Source of the DNA: Chitinophagaceae bacterium
Lineage (GTDB): Bacteria; Bacteroidota; Bacteroidia; Chitinophagales; Chitinophagaceae
Direction: 5' to 3'
NCBI GenBank assembly: GCA_025449645.1
Contig: JANWIY010000075.1
Coordinates: 1-60,120 of the forward strand
Length of the DNA: 60,120 nucleotides
Shown: in pieces, positions 40,836 to 58,545 of the stretch
Layout of the letters: the number at the start of each line of letters is the position of its first letter
Position numbering within the stretch: position 1 is the first letter of the stretch
Translations under genes and position numbers: made by a program
The notes under the pieces: model-generated
Databases searched by the model: none
What the model saw: the letters and a program-made list of their open reading frames with translations, nothing else
What the model was told of the DNA's origin: nothing

Positions 40836-40940
40836 ATTGATGTTTTTAGGATAACCTGCACAAAACAATGGATAAAAAAAAGGCAGGACAATCGGATGAA
40901 GATATGATTTTGAAAAGACCAGGGTGAGCGATCCCTTGTA

Positions 40941-42062
40941 TTATCCGTTGATTTTAATGACCTGTCCGTCAGATTCATCCATATAAATAATCTTTTCTGT
41001 CAGGAATCGAATGCCCTTTGGCTGGCCAAAAGTTATTGTTTCCCTGGGCTGTCTGCGAACGATCAGAACATGTTGCGCAAGGGCGAGGTAGACAAATTGC
41101 TCGTTGCCCATATTTTCATAGGCCACCACTTTCAGGTTGCAATCGGGGCTTTCCGTATCTTCCTCACAGATACAAATATGTTCGGGCCTGATGCCAAGTC
41201 TGATTGGCTTATCCAGGTACTTTACCAAAGATGGTGGGAGCATTGGACCAAGAAAAATTCTACAATCCGAGGATTCATGAACAAAACTATAGCCGTTTAT
41301 TTTTTGTATGGAACCTCTTAAAAAGTTCATGGTTGGGGAACCGATAAAAGAAGCCACAAATTGATTGTCAGGATAATTGTATAAATGCAGTGGCGTATCC
41401 AATTGCATCAGCCTCCCCTTGTTCAGGACGGCAATTCGGGTTCCCAGGGTCATTGCTTCGGTTTGATCGTGCGTAACATAGACCATGGTGGCGTTGATCG
41501 TTCTATGTAATTTTTGCAATTCGATCCGCATCTGGCTCCTCAGTTTGGCATCCAGGTTACTTAGCGGCTCATCAAATAGAAAAACTTCCGGTCGCCGGAT
41601 GATGGCCCTGCCGATAGCTACGCGTTGTCTTTGACCTCCTGATAAGGTTTTGGGTTTCCTTTCCAGCACTTCTTCCATTTCCAGCATTTTTGCCGTTTCC
41701 ATTACCCGCTCATGAATCTCCTTTCTCCTGATATGTTTCAGTCTTAAGCCAAAAGCCATATTATCATATACGGTCATATGCGGGTACAATGCATAGTTCT
41801 GAAATACCATGGCAATATCCCTGTCCCGCGGATCCAGTCCGTTGATTCTTTTACCATCCATAGCCAGGGTCCCTTCACCGATCTCCTCAAGGCCGGCGAT
41901 CATCCTCAGTAATGTGGATTTACCACAACCTGAAGGCCCTACGATCACCATAAACTCCTTATCCTTTACAGTGAAGGAGATGTCATCGATGGCCTTTAAC
42001 CTTGCAGGTTTCCTGCCATCCGTATACCATTTTGAAATATGTGACAATTCAAGTTCTGCCAT
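40941..42062 (-). CDS. Sugar ABC importer ATPase, MalK/UgpC type
   Basis: A 373-residue ATPase (start at the ATG 42060-42062; the frame is open upstream but MAELELSHIS is the standard N-terminus). Walker A G-P-S-G-C-G-K-S-T at 42-50, Q-loop F-Q-N-Y-A-L-Y-P-H, signature L-S-G-G-Q-R-Q-R near 141, Walker B V-F-L-F-D-E-P-L-S-N-L-D and H-loop T-H-D-Q-T-E, followed by the OB-fold regulatory domain of MalK-type proteins. It energises the permease pair encoded upstream in the same operon and is the last gene of the locus, 22 bases after the GH130 gene. Confidence 0.9.
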   Translation of the reverse strand: MAELELSHISKWYTDGRKPARLKAIDDISFTVKDKEFMVIVGPSGCGKSTLLRMIAGLEEIGEGTLAMDGKRINGLDPRDRDIAMVFQNYALYPHMTVYDNMAFGLRLKHIRRKEIHERVMETAKMLEMEEVLERKPKTLSGGQRQRVAIGRAIIRRPEVFLFDEPLSNLDAKLRSQMRIELQKLHRTINATMVYVTHDQTEAMTLGTRIAVLNKGRLMQLDTPLHLYNYPDNQFVASFIGSPTMNFLRGSIQKINGYSFVHESSDCRIFLGPMLPPSLVKYLDKPIRLGIRPEHICICEEDTESPDCNLKVVAYENMGNEQFVYLALAQHVLIVRRQPRETITFGQPKGIRFLTEKIIYMDESDGQVIKING

Positions 42063-42084
42063 ACAGGTTTTATTTATTTTACTT

Positions 42085-43242
42085 TCAAATGGAAAAGTAT
42101 TTCTTCGGAATCCTCGTGATGCGACAAGCCAGATCCAATTCGCCTGACACAATAAGAAAATCTTCTTCATGTTCCGCTATCCCGGTTGTAAATACTACAT
42201 CGTTTAAATAAATCTGGTGACCAATGGAACCGGTGAGACTGGAATTCGCTTCCAAAAACGCCTTTTCATCTTCCAGGTGCAATATGCGGGACGGATCGTT
42301 CCTGTCGAGTATGGCCCAGAATGTGCGGTAAATACCTACCTCTTCCTTTTTCTCCACGCCATGATACAGGATCAGCCAGCCATCTTTAGTGCGAAACGGA
42401 GGCGCACCTCCTCCTATCTTTACATTGGCTGATGATGATCTGCAGGCCCTCAGTAGTGCCGCATCCCAGGGCTTCCAGTGCAGAAGGTCCGGGGAGGATG
42501 CCAGCTGGATTGAAGCACCGGGATGCCAGGAAGCGGAAGGAGAAGATGCAAAATAACATTCACCCATCGGCCTCGTGAGTGCATAATAACGACCATTGAT
42601 TTTTTCCCCGAACAACAACATATCCTTATTCTGGTGATCGAGCACGATGCCAAGGCAGCGGTAGCGCAGGCCGTCCTCCGACACATACAACATGGTGGAA
42701 TGCCGTTCGGAGCTGACACAACAAGTTGTCATATAATAACGGTTATCAATAAACGAAATCCGCGCATCTTCTATACCATATTCCTGGCTGCTGTATTGTG
42801 GCGAAATGATCTTGTCATAATGAATCCGGGTGATTGAAGAGCCGTCGGCATTCAGTTCTACCGGCAGAAGCCAGGATAAGGATGTCAATGCATAAACCGG
42901 AAATGAATACGCATTTATTCTGAACTTCCGCGGATCCGTCATGCTTACGTCGGCCAGGGGCCAAGCATCTGCCTGGTATCCCCGCTCCCGGTCCCACCTG
43001 ATTGAATACGCATTGCCATCAATAACAGGCCTTAGCAGCGCCTCTGCCACCCTTACCATCAATAGTAGATTGCCGTTCCCCAGGCGGCAAACCCCCGGAT
43101 TAAATGCACCCAAAACAAAAGTTTTCTCCTTCAAGCTTTTTCTTAATGGTGAAAAAGAAAGATCAACATGATCCGGCGTAAAAATCAAATGATCTCCAAT
43201 TATATAGTCAGGGGTTATGGTCAGCGCTGCAGAATTGCTCAT
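42085..43242 (-). CDS. GH130 glycoside phosphorylase-like protein (short form)
   Basis: A 385-residue five-bladed beta-propeller of family GH130. Visible family features are F-N-P-G-V-C-R-L-G-N-G-N-L-L-L-M-V-R near residue 43, Y-G-I-E-D-A-R-I near 155, the G-G-G-A-P-P loop near 265 and W-L-I-L-Y-H-G-V. GH130 members phosphorolyse beta-mannosides (mannosylglucose, mannobiose, mannosyl-GlcNAc) or hydrolyse beta-1,2-mannosides. No signal peptide, so cytoplasmic, downstream of the ABC importer. Its start overlaps the stop of the upstream lipoprotein gene by four bases. Confidence 0.85.
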   Translation of the reverse strand: MSNSAALTITPDYIIGDHLIFTPDHVDLSFSPLRKSLKEKTFVLGAFNPGVCRLGNGNLLLMVRVAEALLRPVIDGNAYSIRWDRERGYQADAWPLADVSMTDPRKFRINAYSFPVYALTSLSWLLPVELNADGSSITRIHYDKIISPQYSSQEYGIEDARISFIDNRYYMTTCCVSSERHSTMLYVSEDGLRYRCLGIVLDHQNKDMLLFGEKINGRYYALTRPMGECYFASSPSASWHPGASIQLASSPDLLHWKPWDAALLRACRSSSANVKIGGGAPPFRTKDGWLILYHGVEKKEEVGIYRTFWAILDRNDPSRILHLEDEKAFLEANSSLTGSIGHQIYLNDVVFTTGIAEHEEDFLIVSGELDLACRITRIPKKYFSI

Positions 43243-44555
43243 GGTTTCCTGTATTTATTTAACGCGGTCAGAACTGCCGGAAAATTTTCCAACCGCTGCA
43301 GAGCAAGCAGGGCCTCTATCGTAGACTCTCCCCCCGAGTTCAGATTTACCTGATTCCCTGCTGAAATGGCGTCGAAGCAACGTCCTGTTGATACGTCATA
43401 CATATTGGTATTTGCCAGGTTCGCTCCCAGGAACCAGGCGGCCAGGTGCCCGGCGATATCAGCATATTTATCTTCTCCGGTAATACTATAGGCCTCGATG
43501 GCAGCAAAAATCATTGGCCTGAATCCGTAAGCGATCTGGTCATAACTGGACTGACTAAGCGGTTGAATCTGATTGTTGCTGTCTGTCACCGTGATGCTGG
43601 CCTCAAATCCATTGGCCAATAACCAGGGATAATAATTACTTACTTCGGCCAGCGCTTTGTTGGTGAAGCTGGTATCCTGCAGGAATATTCCTGTCTGCAA
43701 TAGTGCAAATGACTGATCACTGCCATAGGCATGCCATTGATTTTCCCAGCTCAGGAAAAAAGAATAAGGAAAGTGTGACGCATCGCCTTGTTGCATCATG
43801 GCAATACCAGTTGCCAGCTTACGTATATAAGCAGACATCGTCGTATCATTTGTTGTGGTGCAGTAGGAAATCAAACCAAGCACTAGTGTTGCAGCCTGGT
43901 CCGTTCCGCTGCCCTGTGGCAACCATTGCGGAACCGTAATACCACTAATAACCTGCGTTGTCAGGGGCAGGTTAACAAAATCTGTTTTAATATTTGCGAT
44001 CAGCTTATTGATCGCGTCATTCATTTGTCCTCCAAGCTGAGGATTAATGCGCCCTACCGCAGGTGCAGCTTCAGTGAGCGCCTGCAAAGCCCGCCACGAC
44101 CACCAGTTGGGCGTTGCCGCGCTTGTAGATCCCCCTGTGTTAATGGATCCGTCTGTCTGCAGGAAATTATAGAAATAGCCATTGGGCGACTGCATTTCCA
44201 AAATAAATCGAATCAGGTTAGAGACCTTCGACTGCGCTGCAGTATCTGTAGAAAAATTATTATTGCGAAGGTAAAACAAGGCAGCCCTGGATACATCATC
44301 AACACAGGTAAATCCTTCACCGCTGGCTTCAACCGGGTGGTAGTCAGGATATTGAGAATAAATATATATGCCAGATGCATGCACGCCATCAGGAAAAACA
44401 ACCGGCGTGTACAAGGCATCCAGGTGCGTGGTATTCACAAGGCCGGTGTCATTCTTTGGTGGAGCAGGGCCGGATGGCCTGGCTTGCTTCGAACAGGCGA
44501 TTGCAATAAAGCCAATTGAAAATAAATATATCAGAATCTGAATACCCTTTTTCAT
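43239..44555 (-). CDS. Alpha-toroid lipoprotein of unknown activity
   Basis: A 438-residue lipoprotein: signal with lipobox I-A-I-A-C (Cys21), a Pro-rich linker, then a helix-rich (alpha/alpha)6-barrel-like domain with F-T-C-V-D-D-V-S-R-A-A-L-F near residue 83, M-Q-S-P-N-G-Y-F-Y-N-F near 120, W-W-S-W-R-A-L-Q-A-L, and the G-G-E-S-T-I-E-A-L-L end. The D-D-x-x-R-A motif also occurs in toroid domains attached to GH130-linked glycosyltransferases. It is predicted to act at the periplasmic or surface face on the same glycan; whether it is an enzyme or a binder is unclear. Overlaps the GH130 gene by four bases. Confidence 0.65.
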   Translation of the reverse strand: MKKGIQILIYLFSIGFIAIACSKQARPSGPAPPKNDTGLVNTTHLDALYTPVVFPDGVHASGIYIYSQYPDYHPVEASGEGFTCVDDVSRAALFYLRNNNFSTDTAAQSKVSNLIRFILEMQSPNGYFYNFLQTDGSINTGGSTSAATPNWWSWRALQALTEAAPAVGRINPQLGGQMNDAINKLIANIKTDFVNLPLTTQVISGITVPQWLPQGSGTDQAATLVLGLISYCTTTNDTTMSAYIRKLATGIAMMQQGDASHFPYSFFLSWENQWHAYGSDQSFALLQTGIFLQDTSFTNKALAEVSNYYPWLLANGFEASITVTDSNNQIQPLSQSSYDQIAYGFRPMIFAAIEAYSITGEDKYADIAGHLAAWFLGANLANTNMYDVSTGRCFDAISAGNQVNLNSGGESTIEALLALQRLENFPAVLTALNKYRKP

Positions 44556-44630
44556 AAAAATGCTTTAATATTTCTTCCAACAATTATTTTAATTCAATCT
44601 TTCAAATCCGCAATGAAATCCATACCAGGT

Positions 44631-46070
44631 CTATTGACCGGAAGCAGATTCCATTTCATTTAATAATTCATCAAGCCTGACGCTTAGGAATCCCGTGTAT
44701 GAATCAGACAATGCATAAGGGATGATCAGGGTTTCTCCATGAAGCATTAAACCACAGGTGTACACAACATTGGGAACATATCCTTCGCGTTCCGATTCGT
44801 CTGCCCTCACCAGAGGCTTATTCAACCTGCCGATGATCCTGGACGGATCCTCCAGATCGAGAAGAATGGCGCTGATAACATATACCCGCATTGCACCTAC
44901 GCCATGTGTAAGTAGTAACCATCCCTGCCGTGTTTTAATGGGTGATCCGCAATTGCCCAATTGCAGTAATTCCCAGTCAAAGCGGGGTTCCATCAAAGTT
45001 TTGAATTTATCCCAGGTATACAGATCATCTGAGAACATGATGTTTATCTTTTCACCACCCTGCCTTGAAACCATCACGTATTGGCCATTGATTTTTTCCG
45101 GAAACAGGGCCATGCCTTTATCCTGTACCGCAGAACCGGTTAAAGTCCTTATAGAAAATGAATTGAAGTCTTCAGTTTCGAGCAGGCGCGTCTGGATTTC
45201 CTTCCCATTATAGGCCGTATAGGTGCCGTAATAAATAATCCGGCCAGAGTGCCCGAACCTTACCAATCGCACATCCTCCATGCCCATGCTTTCAGCCTTG
45301 CTTCCGGGAAAAATCACTTTTTCATTTATGGGTATTTCTGCAGGGGATTCAAGATCATAATTCCCATCAAATATGGATTCCAGCATTGAAATGGAATTCT
45401 CCGGTCCGGATTCCTGCAAGTCCTTTGATCTTAAGATCCGCATTGCCTGCGCAACAGTAAACTCAGCAGGCAATTTATCAATCATCGTTTTATTAGTCCG
45501 GGGAAATGCTGCCGCACGGTCCAGAATATATTGTTTTGTATACTTTGTATCTCCCTTTCTCCGTAAGCAGGTATGGTAAGGACCCGCCTCATCGAGCAAA
45601 ATATTGTTTTGCCTGTCAACAACACCGGTTTGAAATACAATGGAAGAAATATGGCCTTCGCCGGTTGCCCTCAGGCTCATAAGAAAACGCTGCTCTCCGG
45701 GTTTCACTCCCTGTTGATCAGGATGTGAAATTATAGATGGATTAAACAACGCGGCAGCCTCGATGGAATACTCCTTGGTGAAAAAAGCGCCAAGCAAGTA
45801 TTTTCGCGACATTTGAAAATGAGAAAGGCTTTCTCCATACGCAATTTCTGCTTCGCTGAAATGATCCAGGAAAATGGCCTTCAGATTGCGGTGCCTGGCA
45901 TTAAAATCCTTCATCAATTCTTCCAATAGCAAATCAACTTGTTCTTCCGGAAGGGCAACTACCCTCCTTACTACATTGCGTATGCGATCATTTCCTGGCA
46001 GACGGAGATACTGAAGTATCACCGCTTTTGCAGTGGCAGATAACCTTACCGGGTTTTTGATTATATTCAT
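44631..46070 (-). CDS. GH130 glycoside phosphorylase-like protein (long form)
   Basis: A 479-residue GH130 protein (ATG at 46070; a TTG three bases upstream is ignored). It has a helical N-terminal extension of about 100 residues, then the propeller: F-N-P-S-I-I-S-H-P, R-F-L-M-S-L-R-A-T-G-E-G-H, M-G-M-E-D-V-R-L near 265, G-N-C-G-S-P-I near 373, L-L-L-T-H-G-V. Longer GH130 proteins of this kind act on mannooligosaccharides. Cytoplasmic; four bases separate it from the MalG-type permease gene upstream, so the importer and enzyme are translationally coupled. Confidence 0.85.
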   Translation of the reverse strand: MNIIKNPVRLSATAKAVILQYLRLPGNDRIRNVVRRVVALPEEQVDLLLEELMKDFNARHRNLKAIFLDHFSEAEIAYGESLSHFQMSRKYLLGAFFTKEYSIEAAALFNPSIISHPDQQGVKPGEQRFLMSLRATGEGHISSIVFQTGVVDRQNNILLDEAGPYHTCLRRKGDTKYTKQYILDRAAAFPRTNKTMIDKLPAEFTVAQAMRILRSKDLQESGPENSISMLESIFDGNYDLESPAEIPINEKVIFPGSKAESMGMEDVRLVRFGHSGRIIYYGTYTAYNGKEIQTRLLETEDFNSFSIRTLTGSAVQDKGMALFPEKINGQYVMVSRQGGEKINIMFSDDLYTWDKFKTLMEPRFDWELLQLGNCGSPIKTRQGWLLLTHGVGAMRVYVISAILLDLEDPSRIIGRLNKPLVRADESEREGYVPNVVYTCGLMLHGETLIIPYALSDSYTGFLSVRLDELLNEMESASGQ

Positions 46071-46074
46071 CAAA

Positions 46075-46905
46075 TCAGTCTTTTAGTCCCGTTGAAGCCA
46101 TACTCTGAATAAAATGACGCTGGAAAAAAAGAAATGCGATCATAACCGGCAATGCGAGTAGTACAGCTGCCGCTATTTTAACGCCGAGCTGACTGTCCGC
46201 CCTTCCTCCTACTGCAAAAAGCGTAACCAATTGGGGCATCGTCATTAATTTCTCATTCCGGATTACTATCAACGGCCATAATACTTCGTTCCAGGATCCG
46301 ATAAATGTGAGAATGGCAACGGTGACGAGCGTAGGTTTTATATTGGGCCATAATATTCTGAAAATAATTGTCCATTCATTGCATCCGTCCATGCGCGCGG
46401 CATCGATCAGGGCCTGGGGCAATCCCTGAAAAGCCTGCCTGAACATCAGAATAGCGAATGCACTTACTGCAAACGGAATCACGAGGGCAAAAAAGCTGTC
46501 GACCAGCCGGAGATTTACCATCGTAATATAATTCGGTATCAGGGTAATTTGAAAAGGAAGTGACATCGTAAAAACAATAACATAAAATATGATCTGCCTG
46601 CCTTTAAATCTCATTTTTGCCAGGGCATAGCCGGTTGTTGAACCCGTGACCAATACGAGTGATGTTGTTACAATCGCAATCGCCAGGCTATTTACGAGCG
46701 ATCGTCCGATCGGTATTTTGTTTACCAGCGACACAAAATTCTGCCAGCCCGGATGCATTGGCCAGAGCGTCATTTTCCCCACTTCGTGTGTTGGCGCAAA
46801 AGATGCGCCGATCATCCAGACAAAAGGGTACAGGAAAGAGATGGCCGCAATAATCAATGCACCGTAAAGGAAAATCCTGCCGATTAGAATTTTAGTGCTC
46901 TTCAT
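46075..46905 (-). CDS. Sugar ABC importer permease, MalG type
   Basis: A 276-residue CUT1-type permease with six helices and the EAA coupling motif Q-A-L-I-D-A-A-R-M-D-G near residue 165 that contacts the ATPase. It ends ...L-K-D. It directly abuts the MalF-type gene (no intergenic base). With its partner it forms the inner membrane channel for a di- or oligosaccharide. Confidence 0.9.
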   Translation of the reverse strand: MKSTKILIGRIFLYGALIIAAISFLYPFVWMIGASFAPTHEVGKMTLWPMHPGWQNFVSLVNKIPIGRSLVNSLAIAIVTTSLVLVTGSTTGYALAKMRFKGRQIIFYVIVFTMSLPFQITLIPNYITMVNLRLVDSFFALVIPFAVSAFAILMFRQAFQGLPQALIDAARMDGCNEWTIIFRILWPNIKPTLVTVAILTFIGSWNEVLWPLIVIRNEKLMTMPQLVTLFAVGGRADSQLGVKIAAAVLLALPVMIAFLFFQRHFIQSMASTGLKD

Positions 46906-47790
46906 CTAATTTTCTTTTTCAATCAATTTCTTTTGCAGAAGTACGACGGTCATAATCATCAATGCATAAAAAAAACCCAGCGTTGCAGAATATCCCATAT
47001 TATAATATTGAAATGCCTGCTTGTATATATATAAAACGGCCGACAGGGTCTGATTCAGGGGACCACCGCCTGTCATAATATAGGGTTCTATAAAAAGGGA
47101 AAATCCACCGATGGTCGAGAGGATCACCACCATGAAAATTGTCGGATTGATCATGGGTAAGGTAATATGATAAAACTGCTGCCAGCGGGTGGCGCCTTCA
47201 AGTTTTGCGGCTTCATAATATTGCGTGGGAACAGTTTGCAAACCGATGAGGAACAGAATAACATATAGCCCCATATTCTTCCAGGTTGCCATAACGGCGA
47301 TGGAATAGATGGCCAGGTCAGGATTGACCAGCCAGCCGATCTGCCGGATACCCAGTTTCCCAAGGAGACGATTCAGCAGGCCCGCATCATATCCCAGCAT
47401 TTGCTGCCACAGTATAGTAACCACTACACCTGAAACAATCACAGGGATAAAAAAGGAAACCCTGAAAAAAGACAGCCCCCTGATTTTCCGGTTTAGCAGT
47501 GCGGCCAACGATAAGGAAGCAACAATCTGCAACGGAATATGAAGCAGCAGGAATTTTAGCGTGTTCCCTATGGCCTTCCAGAACAATCGATCATGCCAGA
47601 GACGGGAATAATTTCGCAGGCCAATGAAATGCATGGGCGATATGATGTTCCACTTATTGAAAGTAAGGAAAAAGCAAAAAAATACCGGGAACAGGACAAA
47701 TACAATAACAAACAGCAGGTATGGCGATACCAGCAAATAAGGCAGCATTTTTTTGCCCGTAAACCGAAATCTGAATTTTCCCCTGGCCAT
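46906..47790 (-). CDS. Sugar ABC importer permease, MalF type
   Basis: A 294-residue CUT1 permease: N-terminal basic segment, six helices, and the EAA motif Y-Y-E-A-A-K-L-E-G-A near residue 200. Length and lack of an extra N-terminal domain fit the short MalF class. It pairs with the MalG-type gene immediately downstream and with the ATPase at 40941-42062. Confidence 0.9.
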   Translation of the reverse strand: MARGKFRFRFTGKKMLPYLLVSPYLLFVIVFVLFPVFFCFFLTFNKWNIISPMHFIGLRNYSRLWHDRLFWKAIGNTLKFLLLHIPLQIVASLSLAALLNRKIRGLSFFRVSFFIPVIVSGVVVTILWQQMLGYDAGLLNRLLGKLGIRQIGWLVNPDLAIYSIAVMATWKNMGLYVILFLIGLQTVPTQYYEAAKLEGATRWQQFYHITLPMINPTIFMVVILSTIGGFSLFIEPYIMTGGGPLNQTLSAVLYIYKQAFQYYNMGYSATLGFFYALMIMTVVLLQKKLIEKEN

Positions 47791-47810
47791 AATATCCGCT
47801 CTTATTATTA

Positions 47811-48920
47811 TTAAATAATTTCCGAGATCTTCACCGCCGCCTCTGCCATCTTCAGGGATTCCACGGCATTCCTTTCGTCAATAATGCGAACATGGTTTCT
47901 GTCTGCGATCCATTTCCACTGATCAAGTATCATATCACCCAGCATCTGCCGGTAGCGGTCCTGTTTATCAATCCCTTCCCCAAATTCCATACTGATATGA
48001 TCAGTAAATTTCAAATCTTCAAATCGGCCCCTGGCCTGCCATTCTTTGTCTGCCCCTTGACCATGACGGATAATTGAACCATCTCCCGTCCATTCCCGCA
48101 GTTGTGCCAGTTGCCCTTTCTTCAAAATCCCATACAGCCGCATTTTTACCGGCACCCATCCAAATAATGTAATCTCTCCTCTTTCAAACTGAATACGCAT
48201 CTCCTGCCTGTCGAGTATTCCCGGTTGGTCAAATCCATGATAGAAATTCACCAGACCGCCCGCATAAAGAACAGTTGCCTGGACGCGGTCAGTAATGCAG
48301 GGATCAAAAGCCGGACGTTTCAATTGACATGCGCTGATCATTTTCCCTTCACCGAGCCAGCCGGAGAAAAGATCAAAAAAATGGACTGCATGCTCAATAA
48401 AAATCCCACCGCTTTTTTTCTGGTCCCAGAACCAATGACCGGCAAAAAGCTTCTCGTCGCTGGCATAATTCTCAAAAAATCCATGCAGGAAGAGGCCGAG
48501 AATTTTATTTTCAATAATATCTTTTACAATGCCGAATAACGGATTATACCGCTGCATCAGATTGACAACATAGAGCAACCGGAGCGAGTTGGCCAGGCCG
48601 GCGAGTTCCTCCGCCTCAAAGCCATTTAAAGCGGCAGGTTTTTCTGATATTACGTGCTTACCGGCCAGCAGCGCCTTTTTCGACTGCTGATAATGGAGGT
48701 AGGGTGGTGTTGCGATATAAACAAGACCTATTTTGGGGTTTTCCAGGAACTGATCATAATCCGTGTAAGGCGTTGCACCAAGATCCCGCGCCATTTGTTC
48801 GCCCTGCCCGGGCTTTATATCAGTTATGGCAATGATATTTATTCCCGGAACGTTTCTAAAAGCAGATGCTGCAAATTGCGCAAAATCCCCTGCTCCCACA
48901 ATGCCTATATTAAGTTCCAT
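47811..48920 (-). CDS. Gfo/Idh/MocA family oxidoreductase
   Basis: A 369-residue NAD(P)-dependent dehydrogenase; start at ATG 48918-48920 (MELNIGIVGAGDF), since the longer frame would begin at a TTG. Rossmann G-x-G-A-G near residue 8, E-K-P-A-A-L near 93 with the conserved Lys, and a C-terminal beta-sandwich with an H-in-helix G-I-F-I-E-H motif. The family oxidises or epimerises sugars and inositols. It sits between the binding protein and MalF genes with 20-29-base gaps, implying that it processes the imported sugar or its product. Confidence 0.85.
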   Translation of the reverse strand: MELNIGIVGAGDFAQFAASAFRNVPGINIIAITDIKPGQGEQMARDLGATPYTDYDQFLENPKIGLVYIATPPYLHYQQSKKALLAGKHVISEKPAALNGFEAEELAGLANSLRLLYVVNLMQRYNPLFGIVKDIIENKILGLFLHGFFENYASDEKLFAGHWFWDQKKSGGIFIEHAVHFFDLFSGWLGEGKMISACQLKRPAFDPCITDRVQATVLYAGGLVNFYHGFDQPGILDRQEMRIQFERGEITLFGWVPVKMRLYGILKKGQLAQLREWTGDGSIIRHGQGADKEWQARGRFEDLKFTDHISMEFGEGIDKQDRYRQMLGDMILDQWKWIADRNHVRIIDERNAVESLKMAEAAVKISEII

Positions 48921-48949
48921 ATTAAGATTGTTTTCCTGATCAGGAGCAT

Positions 48950-50248: not shown

Positions 50249-50315
50249 ATCAATTTAAAGCCGGTTGCCAGGTATCTTTTCTGGAAGAAAATATCCCGGG
50301 CAAAGAAAATTTCAT

Positions 50316-50348
50316 AAAAACCCCTGCAATGGTTTTTCACTGCAGGGG
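50316..50348 (-). terminator. Terminator between the Sus part and the ABC part
   Basis: On the minus strand, an 11-bp stem (CCCCTGCAGTG with its complement, one G-U pair) at 50321-50331 and 50338-50348, loop of 6 nt, followed by TTTTT at 50316-50320. It lies 22 bases after the LamG gene stop and before the binding-protein gene, so it should limit or attenuate read-through. Confidence 0.85.
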
Positions 50349-50369
50349 CCAAAAGAACAAACAAAAGTA

Positions 50370-51464
50370 TTACTGCGTCTTCTGATTGTTATAAATGGAA
50401 AGTACCTGGGGTGCGGTCAATGGGATGTTATAGAACATCACATCATCCATATCCCCTGTCCAGAATCCTCCATAGTCTACCAGGAAATTCCCGGACGCAT
50501 CCACTGTGAGATATTTGCTGGTTGGCAAGTCAGAGCCAATGGATATATTAACCGGTGTGCCAACGGGAATCGGACTACCAGGAACATTGGTCCAGGATTT
50601 GACCGGGGAGCCATTAATATAGAAATCTTCTTCTCCGGGTTTAAATGTAACTACCAGATGATACCATGTGGCACCGGGAATTAATGCTGTACCGGCATCA
50701 TCACGATCATAATAAGTAGTATCAACCGGAGGGCCAGTTTCAATAGCATGCACTGTGTAAAAAGGCAAATAAGCTTGTTGAGTCTGAAATTTCCAACCGT
50801 TCCAACGGTTCATAGCGATCATGTAATTATTTGCAGGATTTACGGTTCTTCCGGCTGTATCTTCCCTGACCCAAAGGCTCAATGACATTTGTGAAGGATT
50901 GAAGGCCTTATCGTATGGAACTTCTATATTCCCGCCCTTATCAAAATGATATGCCATACCTGCATTTCCGAATCTGTCTGCAGTAAGTGTTGGCGTTCCT
51001 GCGCCAAAATAAGCGTGGCCCTGGGTAACTGTTCCGTTGTGGCCATTGCCGGATGAATCGTTTGCATTACCATTGAATTTCCAGTATGCAATCAGGTTGG
51101 CAGCAGCAATTTGTTGAATGAAAGTAGCCTTATATGCGGTGATTGCAGCCTGCAGGTTGGCAGCCGCATTATTCAAAACAGTCGTAGTGGAAGTAGGGTC
51201 AGCTAATATTGCATTTGCGGATGCAATAGCTGCATTTAGAGTGGCTTTCGCGCCAACCGTATAGTCACCTGGTTTAGTGCCTTCTGTTGTTTGCGTAGAA
51301 TAAAACTGGGCCGAATCCAATGCGGCCTGAAGGCTGGTCTTGTCTGCGGGTGGCGGAGCAGGAGTCGAACTTTTTTTACTGCATGATGCCAGGATCAACC
51401 CCAATGACAAGAAAAAAAGACTTGCCATTTTGATGAATTTAAGCCGGATAACTAACTGTGTCAT
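50370..51464 (-). CDS. LamG/ConA-like surface glycan-binding lipoprotein
   Basis: A 364-residue lipoprotein (alternative start ATG 51428): lipobox L-I-L-A-S-C (Cys28), a FIVAR-like three-helix segment with L-Q-A-A-L-D-S-A and L-N-A-A-I-A-S-A-N-A-I-L (about 42-115), then a concanavalin-A-like LamG domain starting L-I-A-Y-W-K-F-N-G-N-A-N-D-S-S-G-N-G-H-N-G with a central L-S-L-W-V-R. No catalytic residues visible. It occupies the surface glycan-binding (SGBP) position after SusD and should help capture polysaccharide outside the cell. Confidence 0.8.
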   Translation of the reverse strand: MTQLVIRLKFIKMASLFFLSLGLILASCSKKSSTPAPPPADKTSLQAALDSAQFYSTQTTEGTKPGDYTVGAKATLNAAIASANAILADPTSTTTVLNNAAANLQAAITAYKATFIQQIAAANLIAYWKFNGNANDSSGNGHNGTVTQGHAYFGAGTPTLTADRFGNAGMAYHFDKGGNIEVPYDKAFNPSQMSLSLWVREDTAGRTVNPANNYMIAMNRWNGWKFQTQQAYLPFYTVHAIETGPPVDTTYYDRDDAGTALIPGATWYHLVVTFKPGEEDFYINGSPVKSWTNVPGSPIPVGTPVNISIGSDLPTSKYLTVDASGNFLVDYGGFWTGDMDDVMFYNIPLTAPQVLSIYNNQKTQ

Positions 51465-51499
51465 AAATACTAATTTTTATTGATGAAAAATGAAGCGTC

Positions 51500-53011
51500 T
51501 TAATGCAAAGCTTTATCCGTATCACGCTCGCTTTGCGGAATCGGAAAATGTTTATTTGTATTGTAATTAAAATTCGGGCTGCCGCTCAGGGCCTGTGCAG
51601 CATAGGCTGCTCCCCACCGGATAATGTCAAAATACCGGTGAAACTCAAATCCCAATTCAACACGCCGCTCATGCTGGATCGCTGCGCGGATCACACTTTG
51701 ATCCACAACCGTAAGATCAGGTAAAAGATTTGGAGGCACTTGTCTGTTGCCGGCAGTATCCATGGGGGCCGTTAAAGTAGTATCGTACAGATAACTTTCT
51801 CTTGCACGCTTTCTGACCTGGTTGAGTGGCACCAGTGCGGCGGCACTGCTCCCAAGTTCATTGAGCGATTCTGCATACCAAAGCAATACATCGGCGTAGC
51901 GGATCGCTACATAATCACAACCACCATCCCCAATAATTGGCGCTTCGGATAAGGGTTGCTGGTGTTTCCTTGTGAGATATCCGGTAGGGGACCAGGTGCT
52001 GCTGAATATTAATCCATTAAACCAGGCCATGCTATCTCTTCCAACGGTGTAGTCTAACCGCGGATCCACTACCCCGGCAGGCGTTTTCTCAAATTCATCA
52101 ACAAATCCCTGCGTTGGAGCATCAAAATAATATCCTCCATAAACAGCGGGTGCAAACCACTGGTTTAATGCATTACCGGCCTGGGGAGTCTGGCCATTCA
52201 ACATCTGGACTTCAAAAACTGATTCACTATTATTTTTATAATGGCCGCTGAAATTCTGGCTATAGACCGGCATCAGGCTATACTGTGCGCTATTGATCAC
52301 GCTGGCCGCTGAAGCCATAGCCGAGTCCCATTTATTTTGAAACAAATATGCTTTAGCGAGCAGGGCCATCGCAGCCCCGCTCGTGGCCCTTCCCACATCC
52401 GTTGTATAGGATGAAGGCAGCTGGGTGGATGCGATCCTCAGGTCAGATTCAATCACAGACTCAAAAATTGTCTTGGCGGGGGACTGCTCAATTTGTAGCT
52501 GATCGGCATTCAACGGAGTAAGCACAATAGGCACATCGCCAAAAATATTTACCAAAGTGAAATAATACCAGGACCGGAGAAATCTTGCCTCGCCCAGGAT
52601 CTGCAATTTCAACGCGGTATCCATACTGATAGCGGGAACCTTCGCCAGCACCATATTACACCGCGTGATTCCCTCATATAAAGTGCCCCACTCATTTCCG
52701 AGATTACCATTAATGGGCGTGATATTAAACTGGTCTATTAAACCAATATCTGTTTCATCGCCTACATTACCACCCTTTTCTGCATCATCCGATGCCACAT
52801 CTCCAAATACCCATAAGGGATTACTGGTTGCGGATGTAAATGCCAGGGGCTGATAGGCTGCATTGACAGCCTGCAAAGCCTGTTGTTGGGTCTGATAAAA
52901 AGTAGTGTTTGAGTAAACTCCCTGCAATTCTTTATCCAGATACTTTTTACAACCTACTCCGGTCAGAAAAAATACCGTGATCAAAAAACCTGGAATAAAA
53001 CGCGTTTTCAT
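51500..53011 (-). CDS. SusD/RagB-type nutrient-binding lipoprotein
   Basis: A 503-residue SusD homologue: lipobox T-G-V-G-C (Cys21), then T-F-Y-Q-T-Q-Q-Q-A-L-Q-A-V-N-A-A-Y, TPR helices, Y-A-D-V-L-L-W-Y-A-E-S-L-N-E-L near 380, and the C-terminal E-R-R-V-E-L-G-F-E-F-H-R-Y-F-D-I-I-R-W-G. It forms the lid of the SusC pore. The 22-base gap to the SusC stop marks a co-transcribed pair. Confidence 0.95.
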   Translation of the reverse strand: MKTRFIPGFLITVFFLTGVGCKKYLDKELQGVYSNTTFYQTQQQALQAVNAAYQPLAFTSATSNPLWVFGDVASDDAEKGGNVGDETDIGLIDQFNITPINGNLGNEWGTLYEGITRCNMVLAKVPAISMDTALKLQILGEARFLRSWYYFTLVNIFGDVPIVLTPLNADQLQIEQSPAKTIFESVIESDLRIASTQLPSSYTTDVGRATSGAAMALLAKAYLFQNKWDSAMASAASVINSAQYSLMPVYSQNFSGHYKNNSESVFEVQMLNGQTPQAGNALNQWFAPAVYGGYYFDAPTQGFVDEFEKTPAGVVDPRLDYTVGRDSMAWFNGLIFSSTWSPTGYLTRKHQQPLSEAPIIGDGGCDYVAIRYADVLLWYAESLNELGSSAAALVPLNQVRKRARESYLYDTTLTAPMDTAGNRQVPPNLLPDLTVVDQSVIRAAIQHERRVELGFEFHRYFDIIRWGAAYAAQALSGSPNFNYNTNKHFPIPQSERDTDKALH

Positions 53012-53033
53012 CTCTGTATAATTTTATTGGGGG

Positions 53034-56000
53034 CTAAAAACTCAGGTTCAACCCCAGAATATAACTGCGTGCACTCGGATAAGTTCCCCAATCAATACCC
53101 GCGGCAACATCACCCGGATTCTGCTCAACCTTCACGTTATCACTGATATGCATTTCCGGGTCAAGTCCGGTATATTTTGTAAATGTGAGCAGGTTCTCTC
53201 CCGTTACATAAATTCTTATCCCTTTAATGTGGACCTTATCAGTTAGTTTTTTCGGAATATTATAACCAAGCTGAAGGTTTTTCAATCTCAGATAGGATCC
53301 GCTCTCAATGAACCGGTCTGACGGAATGGTATTATTCGTAGACCCTGACCAGGATACTCTTGGCATAGAGTTACTTGTTCCTTCGCCATGCCAGCGTTCA
53401 TCAAATACCCTTTGTGTCAGGTTGAAAGGACGGTAAAACCCTTCAATGTCTTTATTCACCTGCAGGTATAATTTATTGCCATAAGATCCCTGGAAGAAAA
53501 TAGAAATGTCAAAATTTGCGTAGGAAAGATTGGTTGTAAAACCATAGGTAATTTTAGGAATGGCACTTCCCAGAAATGTTCTGTCGTTTCCGTCAATTAT
53601 ACCATCTGCATTCTGGTCCTTAAACTTTACATCGCCCGGTCTGATTGCATTGCCCTGGTAAGCATGTTTGAAGATATCTGCATTGTTTTGAAAAATGCCT
53701 TCCGTTTGTAATGCATAAAAAGATCCGATCGGGTGGCCCACTTCTGTTAAAGTGGCAAATATTCCATTGTCAATTCTACCCCCGGGTATTGGTGTTCCAT
53801 TACTCAGCGATAATACTTTATTGGCCAGCGTGGAAAAATTCGCACTGAAATCATACCTGAGCCGGCCGTGGTTATTCCTGTAATTAAATTCAACTTCCAG
53901 TCCCTCGTTTTGAACACTGCCTGCATTTTCATAAGGGCTTGCTGCACTTCCACCAATTTGTGGCAGGGGCACAGGAATCAGCATGTTCGTGGTTTTCTTT
54001 ACAAAATAATCTACGGTCATGCTTAGTTTGTCTTCCCATATACCCAGATCAACGCCCGCATCAGCCTGCGTAGATGACTCCCATTTTATATTGGAATTGC
54101 CGCGGCTGGAAACAGCATAACCAAGACCATCCGTTCCGGATTGCGGACTTCCAAAAACATAATTATAATTTGGAGATACAATAGAAGCCCAGGGATAATT
54201 TCCGATGTCCTGATTTCCTAACTGACCAAAGCTGGCCCTTATTTTAAACTTTGAAATTGCAGGCAGCAATTCCGCAAACCATTTTTCATTGTGGATGTTC
54301 CAACCAGCAGATCCTGAAAAAAAGTTGGCATAGCGGTTATCCGGACCGAAACGGGAAGACCCGTCCCGCCTTACGTTAAATGAAAGTAAATACTTGTCAT
54401 TGAAATTATAATTGATATTTCCAAAAAGAGAAAACAGTGCCCATTGCTGTTCATTCTCCATGTTTTTGTCCGACAATGGGTCTCCGTTTCCTAAAAAACG
54501 GAACCCGGGCAATTGATTGGGAAACTTTTTCTCTGAAGCCGTTAGCAGGATATCTGTATTGCTGATGGCTTCTGTTCCAGCCAGCAAGCTCAGATGATGT
54601 TTTCCCTGAATAATTTTATTGTACCTGAGCGTATTATTCCAGATCAGGTTTTCACTTGTTGTCGTGTTTTCGGTGAGTACACTGGGGTTGTTCACCCGGA
54701 GATTACTGCCGTAATTCATATCGAAGCGTTTGTCTTCCGTTACGAATTCATCCAGTCCTACACTGGTCTTGAATACCAGGTTGGGAGCGAACTTATACTC
54801 TGCTCCGAGGTCCCCGAAAACCCGGTATTGTTTTTCTTTATTGTCCGTGTTCTCTGCCAGTGCTACCGGATTATAGCCATCACCAAAAAACCCGGGGTAG
54901 GTGGGAAGATCAGTATACGATCCATCGGGATTATAAATAGGAATTGCCGGTGTACGGAACAGCGCATAACGGACAACACTGCCTCCGTTTCCGCCATAGC
55001 CATCTCCGGAACTTCCTACACTGTTCTTATTTGAATAGGAAACGTTCAAATTATTGACGACACTCAAACGATCTGTTATCTCAACGTTTAATTTGGAGCG
55101 CATGGAATAGCGTTCATACCAGGAATTCAGAATGATCCCATCCTGCTTGAACATATTTCCCGAAACAAAGTAAAGGGTCTTTGCAGTTCCACCACTTACG
55201 GATAGCTCATGACTTTGTATCGGTGCCGTCTGAAAAACTGACCCGACCCAATCCGTATTGGCCATTGGAAGTCCTGCAGGAATGGGCAAACGCTTTAATA
55301 TCGGATTGGATATATCCACATTATCATTTGCGGCTGCTTCATTAAAAAGCTGAACATACTCAGCCGTGTTACACATCGGCGTAAGTTTACCATGTGTTTG
55401 AACGCCGCCATATCCTGAATAATTCAGCTGGGCTTTTCCGGCTTTGCCACCCTTGGTTGTAATTACGATTACTCCGTTTGCCGACCGTGAACCATAAATA
55501 GCAGCAGACGCAGCATCTTTCAGTACCGTAATGGTTGCTATATCATTTGCGGAAAGAAAATTAATCCCGTCTTTTGTAGGAACGCCGTCAATGATAAAAA
55601 GCGGATCATTATTATTGATTGTGCCTACACCGCGGATCCGGATCGCAACGCCATCTCCGGGTTGTCCCGTAGATTCTGTAATACGAAGTCCTGCCGCTTT
55701 TCCCTGCAAAGCCTGATCGGCAAAGCCTACGGGCTGCTTGGAAACACCGGAAACATTAATTACAGAAACTGCTCCCGTTAAATCGGATCGTCTCTGGGAC
55801 TGGTATCCGACCACGACCACTTCATTCAGTCCGTGGTTCAGTTCCTGAATATTCACTTCTATGTTTGCCCGACCGTTAACAGGTACCTCCTGGGATTTGT
55901 ATCCGATATAGGTAACTATGAGAATACCATCTTCCGCAGCAAGAACTGCGAAATTTCCGTCAGCATCTGTCTGAACACTTGTCATTGTACCTTTCACGGC

Positions 56001-56447
56001 TACTGTAGCCCCGGCAAGAGGAATACCGCCGGCATCCTTTACCACACCTTTTACTAGGGATGAAATTGGGCCGGATGCCTCTTTCAGCTGGCTGATTTTC
56101 CTGCTGACGCTGACGAGAATATTCGATTTTTTTTGTGTAAATATCAAACTGGTTTGCCTTGAAATGCCATTGAGCAAATCATCCAGAAGTTGCTGACCGG
56201 TCGCCAGTTTTATTTTCATGGAAAGATCAACCTGATTTTCATCATAAGCAAAAGAGAAGGTGGTTTGTTTTTCAATAAATTCAAAAAATTCCCGTAGCGT
56301 AAAGCTGCTGTTTTTTACGTTTATATATATCCCCTTTGGAAGACCATGATTGCCTCCTGCCCTGCTGGTATTCATGCACATGGATCCAATAAAACACAGC
56401 ATGGCAAACCTGGATACAGGCTTCAAAAACCTTAAAGCTATACACAT
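53034..56447 (-). CDS. SusC/RagA TonB-dependent transporter with STN domain
   Basis: A 1137-residue SusC: signal region (about 1-30), STN (secretin/TonB short N-terminal) domain about 40-105, carboxypeptidase-like regulatory domain about 125-210 (G-V-V-K-D-A-G-G-I-P-L-A-G-A-T-V), TonB plug with R-G-V-G-T-I-N-N-N-D-P-L-F-I-I-D-G-V-P about 265-285, and the barrel ending in N-L-S-F. The STN domain allows signalling to the anti-sigma factor encoded just upstream. It imports oligosaccharides across the outer membrane. Follows the FecR gene by 30 bases. Confidence 0.95.
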   Translation of the reverse strand: MCIALRFLKPVSRFAMLCFIGSMCMNTSRAGGNHGLPKGIYINVKNSSFTLREFFEFIEKQTTFSFAYDENQVDLSMKIKLATGQQLLDDLLNGISRQTSLIFTQKKSNILVSVSRKISQLKEASGPISSLVKGVVKDAGGIPLAGATVAVKGTMTSVQTDADGNFAVLAAEDGILIVTYIGYKSQEVPVNGRANIEVNIQELNHGLNEVVVVGYQSQRRSDLTGAVSVINVSGVSKQPVGFADQALQGKAAGLRITESTGQPGDGVAIRIRGVGTINNNDPLFIIDGVPTKDGINFLSANDIATITVLKDAASAAIYGSRSANGVIVITTKGGKAGKAQLNYSGYGGVQTHGKLTPMCNTAEYVQLFNEAAANDNVDISNPILKRLPIPAGLPMANTDWVGSVFQTAPIQSHELSVSGGTAKTLYFVSGNMFKQDGIILNSWYERYSMRSKLNVEITDRLSVVNNLNVSYSNKNSVGSSGDGYGGNGGSVVRYALFRTPAIPIYNPDGSYTDLPTYPGFFGDGYNPVALAENTDNKEKQYRVFGDLGAEYKFAPNLVFKTSVGLDEFVTEDKRFDMNYGSNLRVNNPSVLTENTTTSENLIWNNTLRYNKIIQGKHHLSLLAGTEAISNTDILLTASEKKFPNQLPGFRFLGNGDPLSDKNMENEQQWALFSLFGNINYNFNDKYLLSFNVRRDGSSRFGPDNRYANFFSGSAGWNIHNEKWFAELLPAISKFKIRASFGQLGNQDIGNYPWASIVSPNYNYVFGSPQSGTDGLGYAVSSRGNSNIKWESSTQADAGVDLGIWEDKLSMTVDYFVKKTTNMLIPVPLPQIGGSAASPYENAGSVQNEGLEVEFNYRNNHGRLRYDFSANFSTLANKVLSLSNGTPIPGGRIDNGIFATLTEVGHPIGSFYALQTEGIFQNNADIFKHAYQGNAIRPGDVKFKDQNADGIIDGNDRTFLGSAIPKITYGFTTNLSYANFDISIFFQGSYGNKLYLQVNKDIEGFYRPFNLTQRVFDERWHGEGTSNSMPRVSWSGSTNNTIPSDRFIESGSYLRLKNLQLGYNIPKKLTDKVHIKGIRIYVTGENLLTFTKYTGLDPEMHISDNVKVEQNPGDVAAGIDWGTYPSARSYILGLNLSF

Positions 56448-56477
56448 GGCAGCGTTAGTTTTTTAAATGCCGGCGCA

Positions 56478-57515
56478 TTATTTAATGAAAATGGTATCCT
56501 CACCTGACTCACTGTTCAATCCCTCTACCTGACAAATATTTTCTATGATTTCTTTTGCCGTCGAATTGGTGAATTCACCTGTAAATCGCCAGTTTTTTTT
56601 ATTGCTCCGGTTAACCAGCGTTATTCCAAAAACGGATTTCATTCTGGCTGCGATCTCTTCAAAATTATTCTGGCGGAATACCAGCCTGTTACTTAGAGAA
56701 ACGCTGCCTTCCGCTAACCAGGCCTCTTTGAAAATGTGTTTATCGTAGCGGTTATAAACAACCCTTTCATGAGGATCCAGAATAATGAAGGAACCTGATG
56801 AACCCGTAGTTTCCACCCTTAGCCGGCCTTTCAGCAATTCCACCAGCATTACGGAATCATTGTGTTCTCTTCTTATGGTAAATTCAGTTCCGAGAACGGT
56901 TGCAACAAGATCATCTTCACATACAATAAATGGATGAATTCCGTCTTTACGCACCTGAAACGAAGCTTCTCCGAGCAGGTTAACTTTTCTTTCTTTGCTG
57001 CCGAAATCCCTGGTATAGCTCAACTTGCTATGAGAAGCCAGGGTTACCACAGTATTGTCACTCAGGGTAAAGGACAAGGGCAGACTCCCCTGATTATATT
57101 TTTCAATCATGCCGGGACCTTTCAGCAACAGGTATCCGGCAACCAAAAGGATAACAGGCGCAGGTACCAGGTAGCGGGTCAGTCTTCTTTTTCGCGATCT
57201 GCTGATTTCAGAAGACTTATTCCAATTTAAAAACCTTAAAATTGACGGTTGGTTCACGGGGGGAACAACAGCGGGCTTTACGGCCATGCTCATGCGAAGT
57301 AATTCCTCCCGGTATTCTTTTTCAGGCAGGTTAAGTGAAAGCATGCTGATCATGCCCATCGCCTGGTCCGCAAGTGGCCTCTTTTCCGGATTCGCTATCA
57401 ACCATTCATCCCAAAATCTTTCGTCTTCCCTGTTTTGATGAAGACAGTAGTTGATAAAAGAACCATTTGCTAAAAAATCTTCAACCTGATAATTCCCGAT
57501 CCTCCTTTTATTCAT
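56478..57515 (-). CDS. FecR-family anti-sigma factor
   Basis: A 345-residue protein with an N-terminal cytoplasmic segment, one membrane helix (about 112-132), the FecR domain with T-V-V-T-L-A-S-H-S-K-L-S-Y near 165, and a C-terminal DUF4974 module (F-R-Q-N-N-F-E-E-I-A-A-R, I-I-E-N-I-C-Q-V-E-G-L). It would hold the adjacent ECF sigma factor until the SusC STN domain signals substrate. 144 bases separate it from the sigma gene, 30 bases from susC. Confidence 0.9.
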   Translation of the reverse strand: MNKRRIGNYQVEDFLANGSFINYCLHQNREDERFWDEWLIANPEKRPLADQAMGMISMLSLNLPEKEYREELLRMSMAVKPAVVPPVNQPSILRFLNWNKSSEISRSRKRRLTRYLVPAPVILLVAGYLLLKGPGMIEKYNQGSLPLSFTLSDNTVVTLASHSKLSYTRDFGSKERKVNLLGEASFQVRKDGIHPFIVCEDDLVATVLGTEFTIRREHNDSVMLVELLKGRLRVETTGSSGSFIILDPHERVVYNRYDKHIFKEAWLAEGSVSLSNRLVFRQNNFEEIAARMKSVFGITLVNRSNKKNWRFTGEFTNSTAKEIIENICQVEGLNSESGEDTIFIK

Positions 57516-57659
57516 CTTTTTCTGGATATTGCCTGTGTGCTGAAATTGTTCCGTATACAGGTAGTGGGGGAAAGAATGGATTTTTACCGGGTATTTCGAA
57601 AATAAATATTGCCGGGTTATACGGGAAGCATGAACGAACCGAAACTTTTCAGTGGAATT

Positions 57660-58229
57660 TTAGAGTAAACTGATCAGAGATAAAAGAGGAAGGATTCGCA
57701 TACTTTCCCTTAAATGACACATAGCTTCATAAACGAGATTATATACGGTGCGCGGGGAAAGTCCCGTGCGGATCGCAATTTCAGGATAGCTCAGGTTTTC
57801 AAAGAATTTCAGGCGGATCACTTCAAGTTGGCCCTTGGATAATTTTTTAAGCGCCGAATGAAGTTTATGTTTATCCTCTTCGGATTGCTGGAATGCAATA
57901 AGCAGATCTTCGTAAGATAAAACGTCAGATGAAAGAATGTCCATGGACGCGGCGTGCTGCTTTTCGGTATTTGAGCGGCCCAACTCTGATGATATTTTTC
58001 GTCTCAGCCAGGTAAAAAGATATGAACGAACGTGTTCAACTTCTTTGTTGAGTGTTGTGCGGGTTTGCCAGATCTCCAGGAACATTTCCTGGATACTGTC
58101 TTTCGTCAGTTCACGGTTAGCGGTCAGACTGAATCCATAAGCAAACAGCGCTTGATAGTGACTTTCATAAACGGCCAGAAAAGCATCCCTGTCTCCCACG
58201 ACAATGCAGCCCCATTGATTTGATTTCAT
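57660..58229 (-). CDS. ECF RNA polymerase sigma-70 factor
   Basis: A 189-residue sigma factor: region 2 with F-A-Y-G-F-S-L-T-A-N-R-E-L-T-K-D-S-I-Q-E (residues about 30-50) and I-W-Q-T-R-T, and region 4 with L-S-K-G-Q-L-E-V-I-R-L-K-F-F-E-N-L-S-Y-P-E-I-A near 130-150. It belongs to the FecI-like ECF group that controls SusCD loci in Bacteroidota. It is the first gene of the leftward locus and divergent from the partial gene at 58546. Confidence 0.9.
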   Translation of the reverse strand: MKSNQWGCIVVGDRDAFLAVYESHYQALFAYGFSLTANRELTKDSIQEMFLEIWQTRTTLNKEVEHVRSYLFTWLRRKISSELGRSNTEKQHAASMDILSSDVLSYEDLLIAFQQSEEDKHKLHSALKKLSKGQLEVIRLKFFENLSYPEIAIRTGLSPRTVYNLVYEAMCHLRESMRILPLLSLISLL

Positions 58230-58545
58230 TTGGGGATAATCGTTGAATCATCAGTATATAATAGAACTTGTATATTGAGGTGAATGATAGTCTACACAAT
58301 ATACATGAATCCCGCGAGCATATCAGAACCGAATTCAGGATAGGATCCGCGCAACGGCCTTTTCTCTGCCACGGCCGATGGTGACGCCCTTTGAGCTTCA
58401 GGGTAAAGAGCTAGGAACCCAACAGTTATCCATTTTACTTGATCCCGAACCCTGGCGAAAAGCGGGTGAGGGCTTCAGGAGAAAATATGCAGGCCCATTA
58501 AACCAAAATCACCTAAAGGACTATATTGGGGAAAGTTTTCTAACC
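58230..58545. other. Intergenic region between sigma factor and partial gene
   Basis: About 315 bases. The frame of the downstream gene is open from about 58309 and an ATG at 58378 could start a 56-residue N-terminal extension of polar, ordinary-looking sequence; I prefer the later start because it begins a signal peptide. No promoter box is convincing on either strand. Confidence 0.4.

Follow-up and report, generated by a model that had tools for sequence, protein, structure and literature searches.

The contig JANWIY010000075.1 of the Chitinophagaceae bacterium assembly GCA_025449645.1 carries thirteen genes in which a SusCD-type outer-membrane uptake system is followed, on the same strand, by a complete ATP-binding cassette (ABC) importer of the carbohydrate uptake transporter 1 (CUT1) family, interleaved with two glycoside hydrolase family 130 (GH130) proteins. 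The locus is a real, conserved and uncommon union of known parts, namely SusCD uptake, a CUT1 ABC importer and GH130, and no new kind of machine. Its gene content, its tight one-strand order, the conserved linkage of its two halves and the single clade formed by the SusCD-linked ABC proteins were observed directly. The locus probably encodes one two-stage TonB and ABC importer, together with a catabolic route, for a beta-mannosyl oligosaccharide that is most likely beta-1,2-linked.

Organization of the locus

The stretch analyzed here (the window, 60,120 nucleotides) is the whole of contig C75 of a 3.59 Mb, 86%-complete assembly, and the divergent gene that starts at 58378 or 58546 is therefore cut by the contig end. 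The thirteen genes are close-set on the minus strand from 58229 down to 40941. The gaps between them range from -4 to 144 bases when the ATPase is started at 42062 (residue 37), the most likely start because the listed open reading frame start overlaps the second GH130 gene. The genes are given in locus order, with the divergent neighbor last.

57660..58229, minus: extracytoplasmic function (ECF) sigma factor, 189 aa (Pfam Sigma70_r2/r4_2)
56478..57515, minus: FecR-type anti-sigma factor, 345 aa (Pfam FecR, FecR_C)
53034..56447, minus: SusC-type TonB-dependent transporter with an N-terminal extension, 1137 aa (Pfam TonB_dep_Rec_b-barrel, Plug, CarbopepD_reg_2)
51500..53011, minus: SusD-type lipoprotein, 503 aa (Pfam SusD_RagB, SusD-like_3)
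50370..51464, minus: LamG/FIVAR lipoprotein, 364 aa, lipobox by eye (Pfam Laminin_G_3 above cut-off, FIVAR below)
48950..50248, minus: CUT1 solute-binding lipoprotein (SBP), 432 aa, lipobox by eye (Pfam SBP_bac_8)
47811..48953, minus: Gfo/Idh/MocA oxidoreductase, 380 aa (Pfam GFO_IDH_MocA; kept in genome G028)
46906..47790, minus: CUT1 permease of UgpA/MalF type, 294 aa (Pfam BPD_transp_1)
46075..46905, minus: CUT1 permease of UgpE/MalG type, 276 aa (Pfam BPD_transp_1)
44631..46073, minus: GH130a, long form, 480 aa (Pfam GH130; best PDB match 9fj8, a 1,2-beta-oligomannan phosphorylase)
43239..44555, minus: toroid lipoprotein, 438 aa (PDB 7tem, YPO2471, E 9e-89)
42085..43242, minus: GH130b, 385 aa (Pfam GH130; best PDB match 5b0p, Lin0857)
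40941..42062 (start moved from 42170), minus: MalK/UgpC-type ATPase (Pfam ABC_tran, OB_MalK, TOBE_2; NCBIfam PRK11650 above cut-off)
58546..60120, plus: Part581, a divergent protein with a signal-like N-terminus, cut by the contig end; likely a member of the system, with homologs near toroid, GH130 or SusCD genes

The outer-membrane half has the features of a SusCD-type polysaccharide utilization locus (PUL), with SusC and SusD adjacent on one strand and linked to a LamG lipoprotein and an ECF/FecR regulator pair. As for the enzymes of such a PUL, the toroid lipoprotein and Part581 show Pfam matches that are subthreshold or absent. The gene list, strand and coordinates of the original prediction stand, and Pfam confirms the families with two exceptions. 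The toroid lipoprotein is below the Pfam threshold, and for the STN domain assigned to SusC Pfam reports none, the STN-like N-terminal extension being read by eye.

The inner-membrane half is a complete CUT1 set by Pfam, with an SBP, two permeases of the binding-protein-dependent transport type and one ATPase with OB/TOBE domains. By NCBIfam this ATPase belongs to the UgpC subfamily (451.6 bits, cut-off 432), and its score with the NCBIfam MalK model is under that model's cut-off. The permeases score best with the UgpA and UgpE models, yet under their cut-offs. The closest solved relative of the SBP is Lmo0859 (PDB 4gqo, E 6e-38). When the first permease (UgpA/MalF type) is used as a query, its own genome matches solely at this locus at 1e-5. 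Five further BPD_transp_1 matches elsewhere in the genome indicate that other ABC importers exist there.

Two flanking genes in the window, at 38596-39759 (minus) and 39885-40868 (minus), are both without a Pfam match; the first presumably resembles a membrane acyltransferase of the HGSNAT/DUF5009 type.

Conservation and rarity of the linkage

The arrangement is repeated in G028, a genome of the same genus that holds all thirteen genes in identical order at 43-84% identity, and it is therefore no local accident. In all five class genomes found to have the SBP, namely G028, G427, G120, G214 and the window's own genome (G000), SusC and SusD share its one-strand cluster. The SusD proteins of G120 and G427 were confirmed by Pfam, and the LamG lipoprotein follows SusD in G028, G010, G427 and G007. 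The proposal that the two halves belong together is thus borne out by this kept linkage, and the genome comparison did not find the halves always separate in homologous loci.

Carriers are few. With the own genome included in each count, 2 of the 33 genus genomes and 4 of the 395 sampled class genomes have the SBP. The second permease matches 5 of 395 class genomes at 1e-8 (own included), four of these matches being this locus. The fifth, in G522 (L153, contig C78), is another CUT1 cluster with AraC, SBP, permeases, MalK, GH65 and GH32 genes, and the 12.7 kb contig that carries it has no SusCD. With the first permease as a query against eight chosen genomes, matches fall in the five carriers alone and at this locus alone. 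The original prediction had called CUT1 importers rare in the phylum; tested at the level of the class, rarity holds.

Two other explanations were rejected. An assembly artifact does not fit the presence of the thirteen-gene order in a 100%-complete genome and of SusCD and ABC genes in 99-100% complete ones. Chance nearness to one of many SusCD pairs was likewise dropped; the 3.59 Mb genome gave 11 SusD-like matches, some of them fragments of one gene. In 7 of 8 genomes searched, own included, the window SusD has its best match in the linked copy (G034 is the exception).

An older module behind different receptors

The toroid lipoprotein was used to follow the module across the phylum. Matches to it occur in 88 of 395 phylum genomes, and near full-length orthologs in 29 loci other than the window; a contig scan for the toroid by short exact patterns found only 5 loci. 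Of the 29, 27 were taken, G106 and G114 being left out as they share a genus with three included loci. The SBP and both permeases accompany the toroid in 26 of the 27, G010 being the exception. A GH130 gene is present in 25 (all but G010 and G427), and 11 include MalK within the stretch.

Of the 23 loci outside the class, 22 have a TonB receptor upstream; in the exception, G441, the contig ends first. The barrel and plug of this receptor were confirmed by Pfam for one such locus. PF07980 detected no SusD at all in 17 of these genomes; in the remaining six of the 23, its matches lie away from the locus. The window ECF and FecR proteins have no match in the phylum-wide loci. Between receptor and SBP these loci instead hold the protein families c5 and c6, and in many cases also c7. 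The c6 family is PorV-like (25.2 bits, cut-off 27) and c7 is PPIase-like at a subthreshold score. The c5 family (L104 1990-5280 and relatives) is a conserved protein of about 1090 aa between the TonB receptor and the PorV-like gene; the L104 copy has no Pfam or PDB match. A GH2-type family, c10, is present in 15 of 36 clustered stretches; its single tested member contains a mannosidase Ig domain.

When the SBP and permease sequences of 31 loci, including five from other phyla, were concatenated for a tree, all five SusCD-linked sets grouped in a single clade with support of 100. Inside this clade the G427 set lies nearer to that of the window than the G120 and G214 sets do. G427 has no rank below the class in common with the window, and G120 and G214 belong to the window's order, so exchange between lineages is suggested. 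The ABC core is thus an older module that elsewhere in the phylum stands behind a TonB receptor without SusD, and here the receptor is SusCD. The tree suggests that one receptor change gave the SusCD form. The ABC half is indeed linked to SusCD, as had been proposed, but it is no local add-on.

GH130 chemistry and the likely substrate

Both GH130 proteins keep the conserved Asn, the general-acid Asp and the terminal Asp of the family, and no signal peptide is visible by eye at either N-terminus. According to passages of PMC4599007, GH130 phosphorylases bind phosphate via three basic residues where hydrolases carry a Glu pair, and one Lys is named there as a beta-1,2 specificity determinant. 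The three basic columns were inferred here by comparing the hydrolase-looking protein L040 with Lin0857-like and 3was-type proteins. GH130b has Arg, Lys and His in these columns (all three basic), and GH130a has Arg, Gln and His. For the carboxylate pair of the hydrolases, Glu227/Glu268, the inferred Glu268 column holds Asn in 21 of 21 members of the GH130a clade and Gly or Ala in 4 of 4 of the GH130b clade; a Glu in GH130a lies one place off the inferred Glu227 column. Two columns are candidates for the beta-1,2 Lys (BT3780 Lys199); GH130a and GH130b have Lys in both, and the 3was type has another residue in each.

From the three basic residues and the candidate Lys columns, the predicted activity of GH130b is that of a beta-1,2-mannoside phosphorylase. 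GH130a forms a distinct clade and may be a phosphorylase with one non-basic residue of the three. Cytoplasmic phosphorolysis, as originally proposed, is accordingly predicted for GH130b, while GH130a lacks one of the three inferred basic residues. A reading in which the Lys199 column is taken as settled was rejected, as L040 aligns ambiguously there. L040 3601-4710 (plus strand, contig C168) is a third GH130 of the same genome, away from the locus, with a signal peptide by eye and hydrolase-looking residues.

Other substrate clues come from known relatives. Among solved structures, GH130b is nearest to Lin0857 and GH130a to a 1,2-beta-oligomannan phosphorylase; passages of PMC8950772 describe Lin0857 as a characterized beta-1,2-mannobiose phosphorylase. 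A Listeria record holds an SBP homolog with two permeases and GH13-type, DUF1861, GH130 and phospho-sugar mutase genes, its GH130 being near-identical to Lin0857. The part of PMC7676653 consulted gives the ligand of Lmo0859 as unknown. Part of PMC2860498 supplies the locus numbers lmo0858-lmo0865, and their mapping to the Listeria record is our own. Five of the six plasmid-collection records examined that hold the SBP and permeases also hold GH130 (Listeria, Enterobacter, Streptomyces, Sphingomonas and Gemmatirosa), and the toroid is also present in the Sphingomonas and Gemmatirosa records. The earlier assignment of mannoside-type enzymes was upheld, both proteins being GH130 by Pfam with beta-1,2-mannoside phosphorylases as PDB neighbors. 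The mannose-containing substrate was refined, in that the closest characterized relatives favor beta-1,2-mannosides over plant beta-1,4-mannan.

The most serious alternative, though appreciably less likely, is that the same two-stage importer serves another mannose-containing substrate, such as beta-1,4-mannan pieces, an N-glycan core or a mannosyl-modified small glycoside, and that the beta-1,2 assignment from distant relatives is wrong. Identity in the GH130 comparison with the Lin0857-like protein is about 29-33%, and GH130a has noncanonical residues. A more complex substrate is also hinted at by the Gfo/Idh gene of the operon and by the GH2 mannosidase-like and GH94-like genes of other loci. 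On the other side, the two candidate Lys columns agree with the beta-1,2 set and not with the 3was type, and the nearest solved SBP and the nearest GH130b relative come from the same kind of Listeria locus.

The toroid lipoprotein and Part581

The lipoprotein at 43239-44555, called an alpha-toroid protein in the original prediction, is homologous to YPO2471 along its full length, and its Pfam match to GH127_cat is below threshold (19.3 bits against 24.9). An Asp-Asp pair is kept in 15 of 15 aligned sequences. In a profile search of the PDB, matches beyond 7tem were at E 0.12 or worse only, and Pfam matches were subthreshold.

Among the module genes, L090 4610-6943, L092 4558-6891 and L093 10835-13123 each encode a protein of about 770 aa whose C-terminus is toroid-like. 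The L090 protein, the sole one tested by Pfam, is a glycosyltransferase family 4 (GT4)-type protein. Weak toroid matches in such frames of about 770 aa occur across many phylum genomes. A passage of PMC6987092 reports a GT4 gene beside two GH130 genes in Rhodothermus.

The original prediction saw no secreted mannanase in the locus and offered the partial gene at 58546 as a possible cutter. This gene, Part581, is a recurrent partner. In 13 of the loci examined (L041, L042, L046-L048, L082, L088, L090, L095, L100, L103, L120 and L121), homologs of it are close to toroid, GH130 or SusCD genes. Several of these homologs share one reading frame with a LamG domain, and L046 has in addition a type IX secretion system (T9SS) tail. 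Part581 is not adjacent to the locus in G028. Single-sequence and profile searches gave no convincing Pfam or PDB match. Structure prediction reached a pLDDT (predicted local distance difference test) of 33.5 from the single sequence and 40.1 with a four-sequence alignment, and Foldseek returned nothing at E <= 0.001; the top rows were GH76 alpha-1,6-mannanases, a transaldolase and epimerase-type proteins. At most, the model points to a possible helical toroid. As a recurrent partner, Part581 is likely part of the system and the best candidate for the secreted enzyme that seemed to be missing, so that this enzyme is probably not missing after all.

Weighing one importer against two systems

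Several observations weigh against a single importer and route for beta-1,2-mannosides. In the GH130a clade Gln stands in 21 of 21 sequences where the compared phosphorylases show Lys or Arg. The columns used for the Lys and for the three basic residues are themselves our reading of alignments to which BT3780 does not belong. The long form of GH130 is present without nearby ABC genes in G006 and G034, and one of the six plasmid-collection records, from Haladaptatus, has a homologous SBP set without GH130. Three loci of Bacteroidales metagenome-assembled genomes (L045, L048 and L049) carry permeases, toroid and GH130, but the 11.2, 7.1 and 21.3 kb examined there gave no match to SusC, SusD or the SBP, so the link between SusCD and the ABC genes is not universal; L045 and L049 possibly represent a third arrangement. 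G427 has SusCD, SBP, permeases, toroid and MalK with no GH130 match in 20 kb, and GH130 is therefore not obligatory. In G010, SusCD, LamG and the toroid are present and the SBP is absent.

Some of these facts would also suit neighboring halves that act on different substrates, the ABC half being separately regulated and merely placed behind a PUL, which is improbable. G010 and G007 keep SusCD and LamG without ABC genes, and the 121 bases between the halves (50249-50369, from LamG to SBP) are the largest gap after the regulatory genes. Set against this are the same-strand linkage in every SBP-positive class genome, the TonB receptor that precedes the module in nearly all other loci, and the junction itself, inside which none of the listed minus-strand terminator-like sites falls. 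In addition, the ABC-less relatives G007 and G034 have SusC, SusD and GH130, then a major facilitator superfamily (MFS) permease and Part581, so that an MFS permease takes the place of the ABC importer beside SusCD, GH130 and Part581. In the third ABC-less relative, G010, MFS, Part581 and GH130 are all absent after the toroid in the stretch examined. As MFS replaces ABC in two of these three relatives and the receptor differs elsewhere in the phylum, both membrane stages look exchangeable.

Least probable of all is that the ABC half salvages a mannosylated envelope or storage glycan of the cell itself rather than food: the GT4-type protein, one of the toroid-clustering proteins of about 770 aa found among module genes in three loci, and the proposal in part of PMC4264767 that the Thermoanaerobacter ABC and two-GH130 set feeds GDP-mannose synthesis would fit it, but SusCD, a surface-type lipoprotein and ECF/FecR control are textbook features of foraging loci, and the window locus has no glycosyltransferase gene.

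Proposed route and relation to known systems

In the favored two-stage scheme, SusC, SusD and the LamG lipoprotein would bind the oligosaccharide at the cell surface, and SusC would carry it into the periplasm with TonB energy, as their families suggest. The toroid lipoprotein and Part581 may trim it. The binding lipoprotein would then hand the sugar to the CUT1 permease pair, powered by the MalK/UgpC-type ATPase. In the cytoplasm GH130b, and probably GH130a too, would split the oligosaccharide, and the residues of GH130b point to phosphorolysis that would yield mannose 1-phosphate. The ECF sigma factor, FecR and the SusC N-terminus presumably switch the locus on via trans-envelope signaling.

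Parts of this scheme have precedents. The Listeria Lin0857 locus likewise joins a GH130 of the same broad group to a homologous CUT1 SBP and two homologous permeases. It differs in having a LacI regulator and GH13-type, DUF1861 and phospho-sugar mutase genes, and the stretch shown has no SusCD, toroid or importer ATPase gene. As the LacI regulator and the phospho-sugar mutase are absent from the window locus, the latter may work like a Listeria-type locus but is not classed as one. Passages of PMC4264767 describe Thermoanaerobacter Teth514_1785-1796 as an ABC importer with two GH130 proteins that differ in chain-length preference, and propose import and stepwise phosphorolysis. That set, by the same passages, differs in its two ATPase genes, its GH5 and GDP-mannose genes and its lack of an outer-membrane stage.

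A canonical SusCD PUL with an MFS permease shares ECF/FecR, SusC, SusD and a lipoprotein, whereas the window locus has a complete CUT1 ABC importer at the inner membrane. The phylum-wide TonB receptor loci share SBP, permeases, GH130, toroid and in some cases Part581, but their receptor is without SusD and many have GH2 and GH94-like genes. YPO2471 is alike along the full length of the toroid lipoprotein, and its PDB molecule name states no function. No description of a SusCD, CUT1 and GH130 locus was found in the titles and abstract starts of the open-licence papers listed, and the passages of PMC6987092, PMC11892949 and PMC5127042 describe none.

A broader reading can be offered tentatively, with somewhat less confidence than the scheme above. 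The locus may belong to a class of Bacteroidota tandem importer not yet described, pairing a TonB receptor with a CUT1 ABC system for beta-1,2-mannosides. Its stages would be interchangeable, with SusCD or a SusD-less receptor outside and ABC or MFS inside. The SusCD form would go back to one receptor change and would later have spread among a few Bacteroidia. Part581 and the toroid would represent new families of secreted beta-mannan-active glycosidases, and GH130a would be a phosphorylase whose phosphate site is altered.

The usual picture of a Bacteroidota glycan locus is TonB-driven uptake followed by a secondary permease. Passages of PMC11892949 (2025) describe plant-associated Bacteroidota as being without the high-affinity ABC transporters common in other plant bacteria. 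The locus is an exception to this that has been conserved, with ATP predicted to power the inner-membrane step. The use of ABC or MFS behind related SusCD pairs provides a natural comparison that makes the reason for this testable. Two unassigned protein families, the toroid and Part581, and one GH130 clade are marked by the locus as likely beta-mannoside enzymes.

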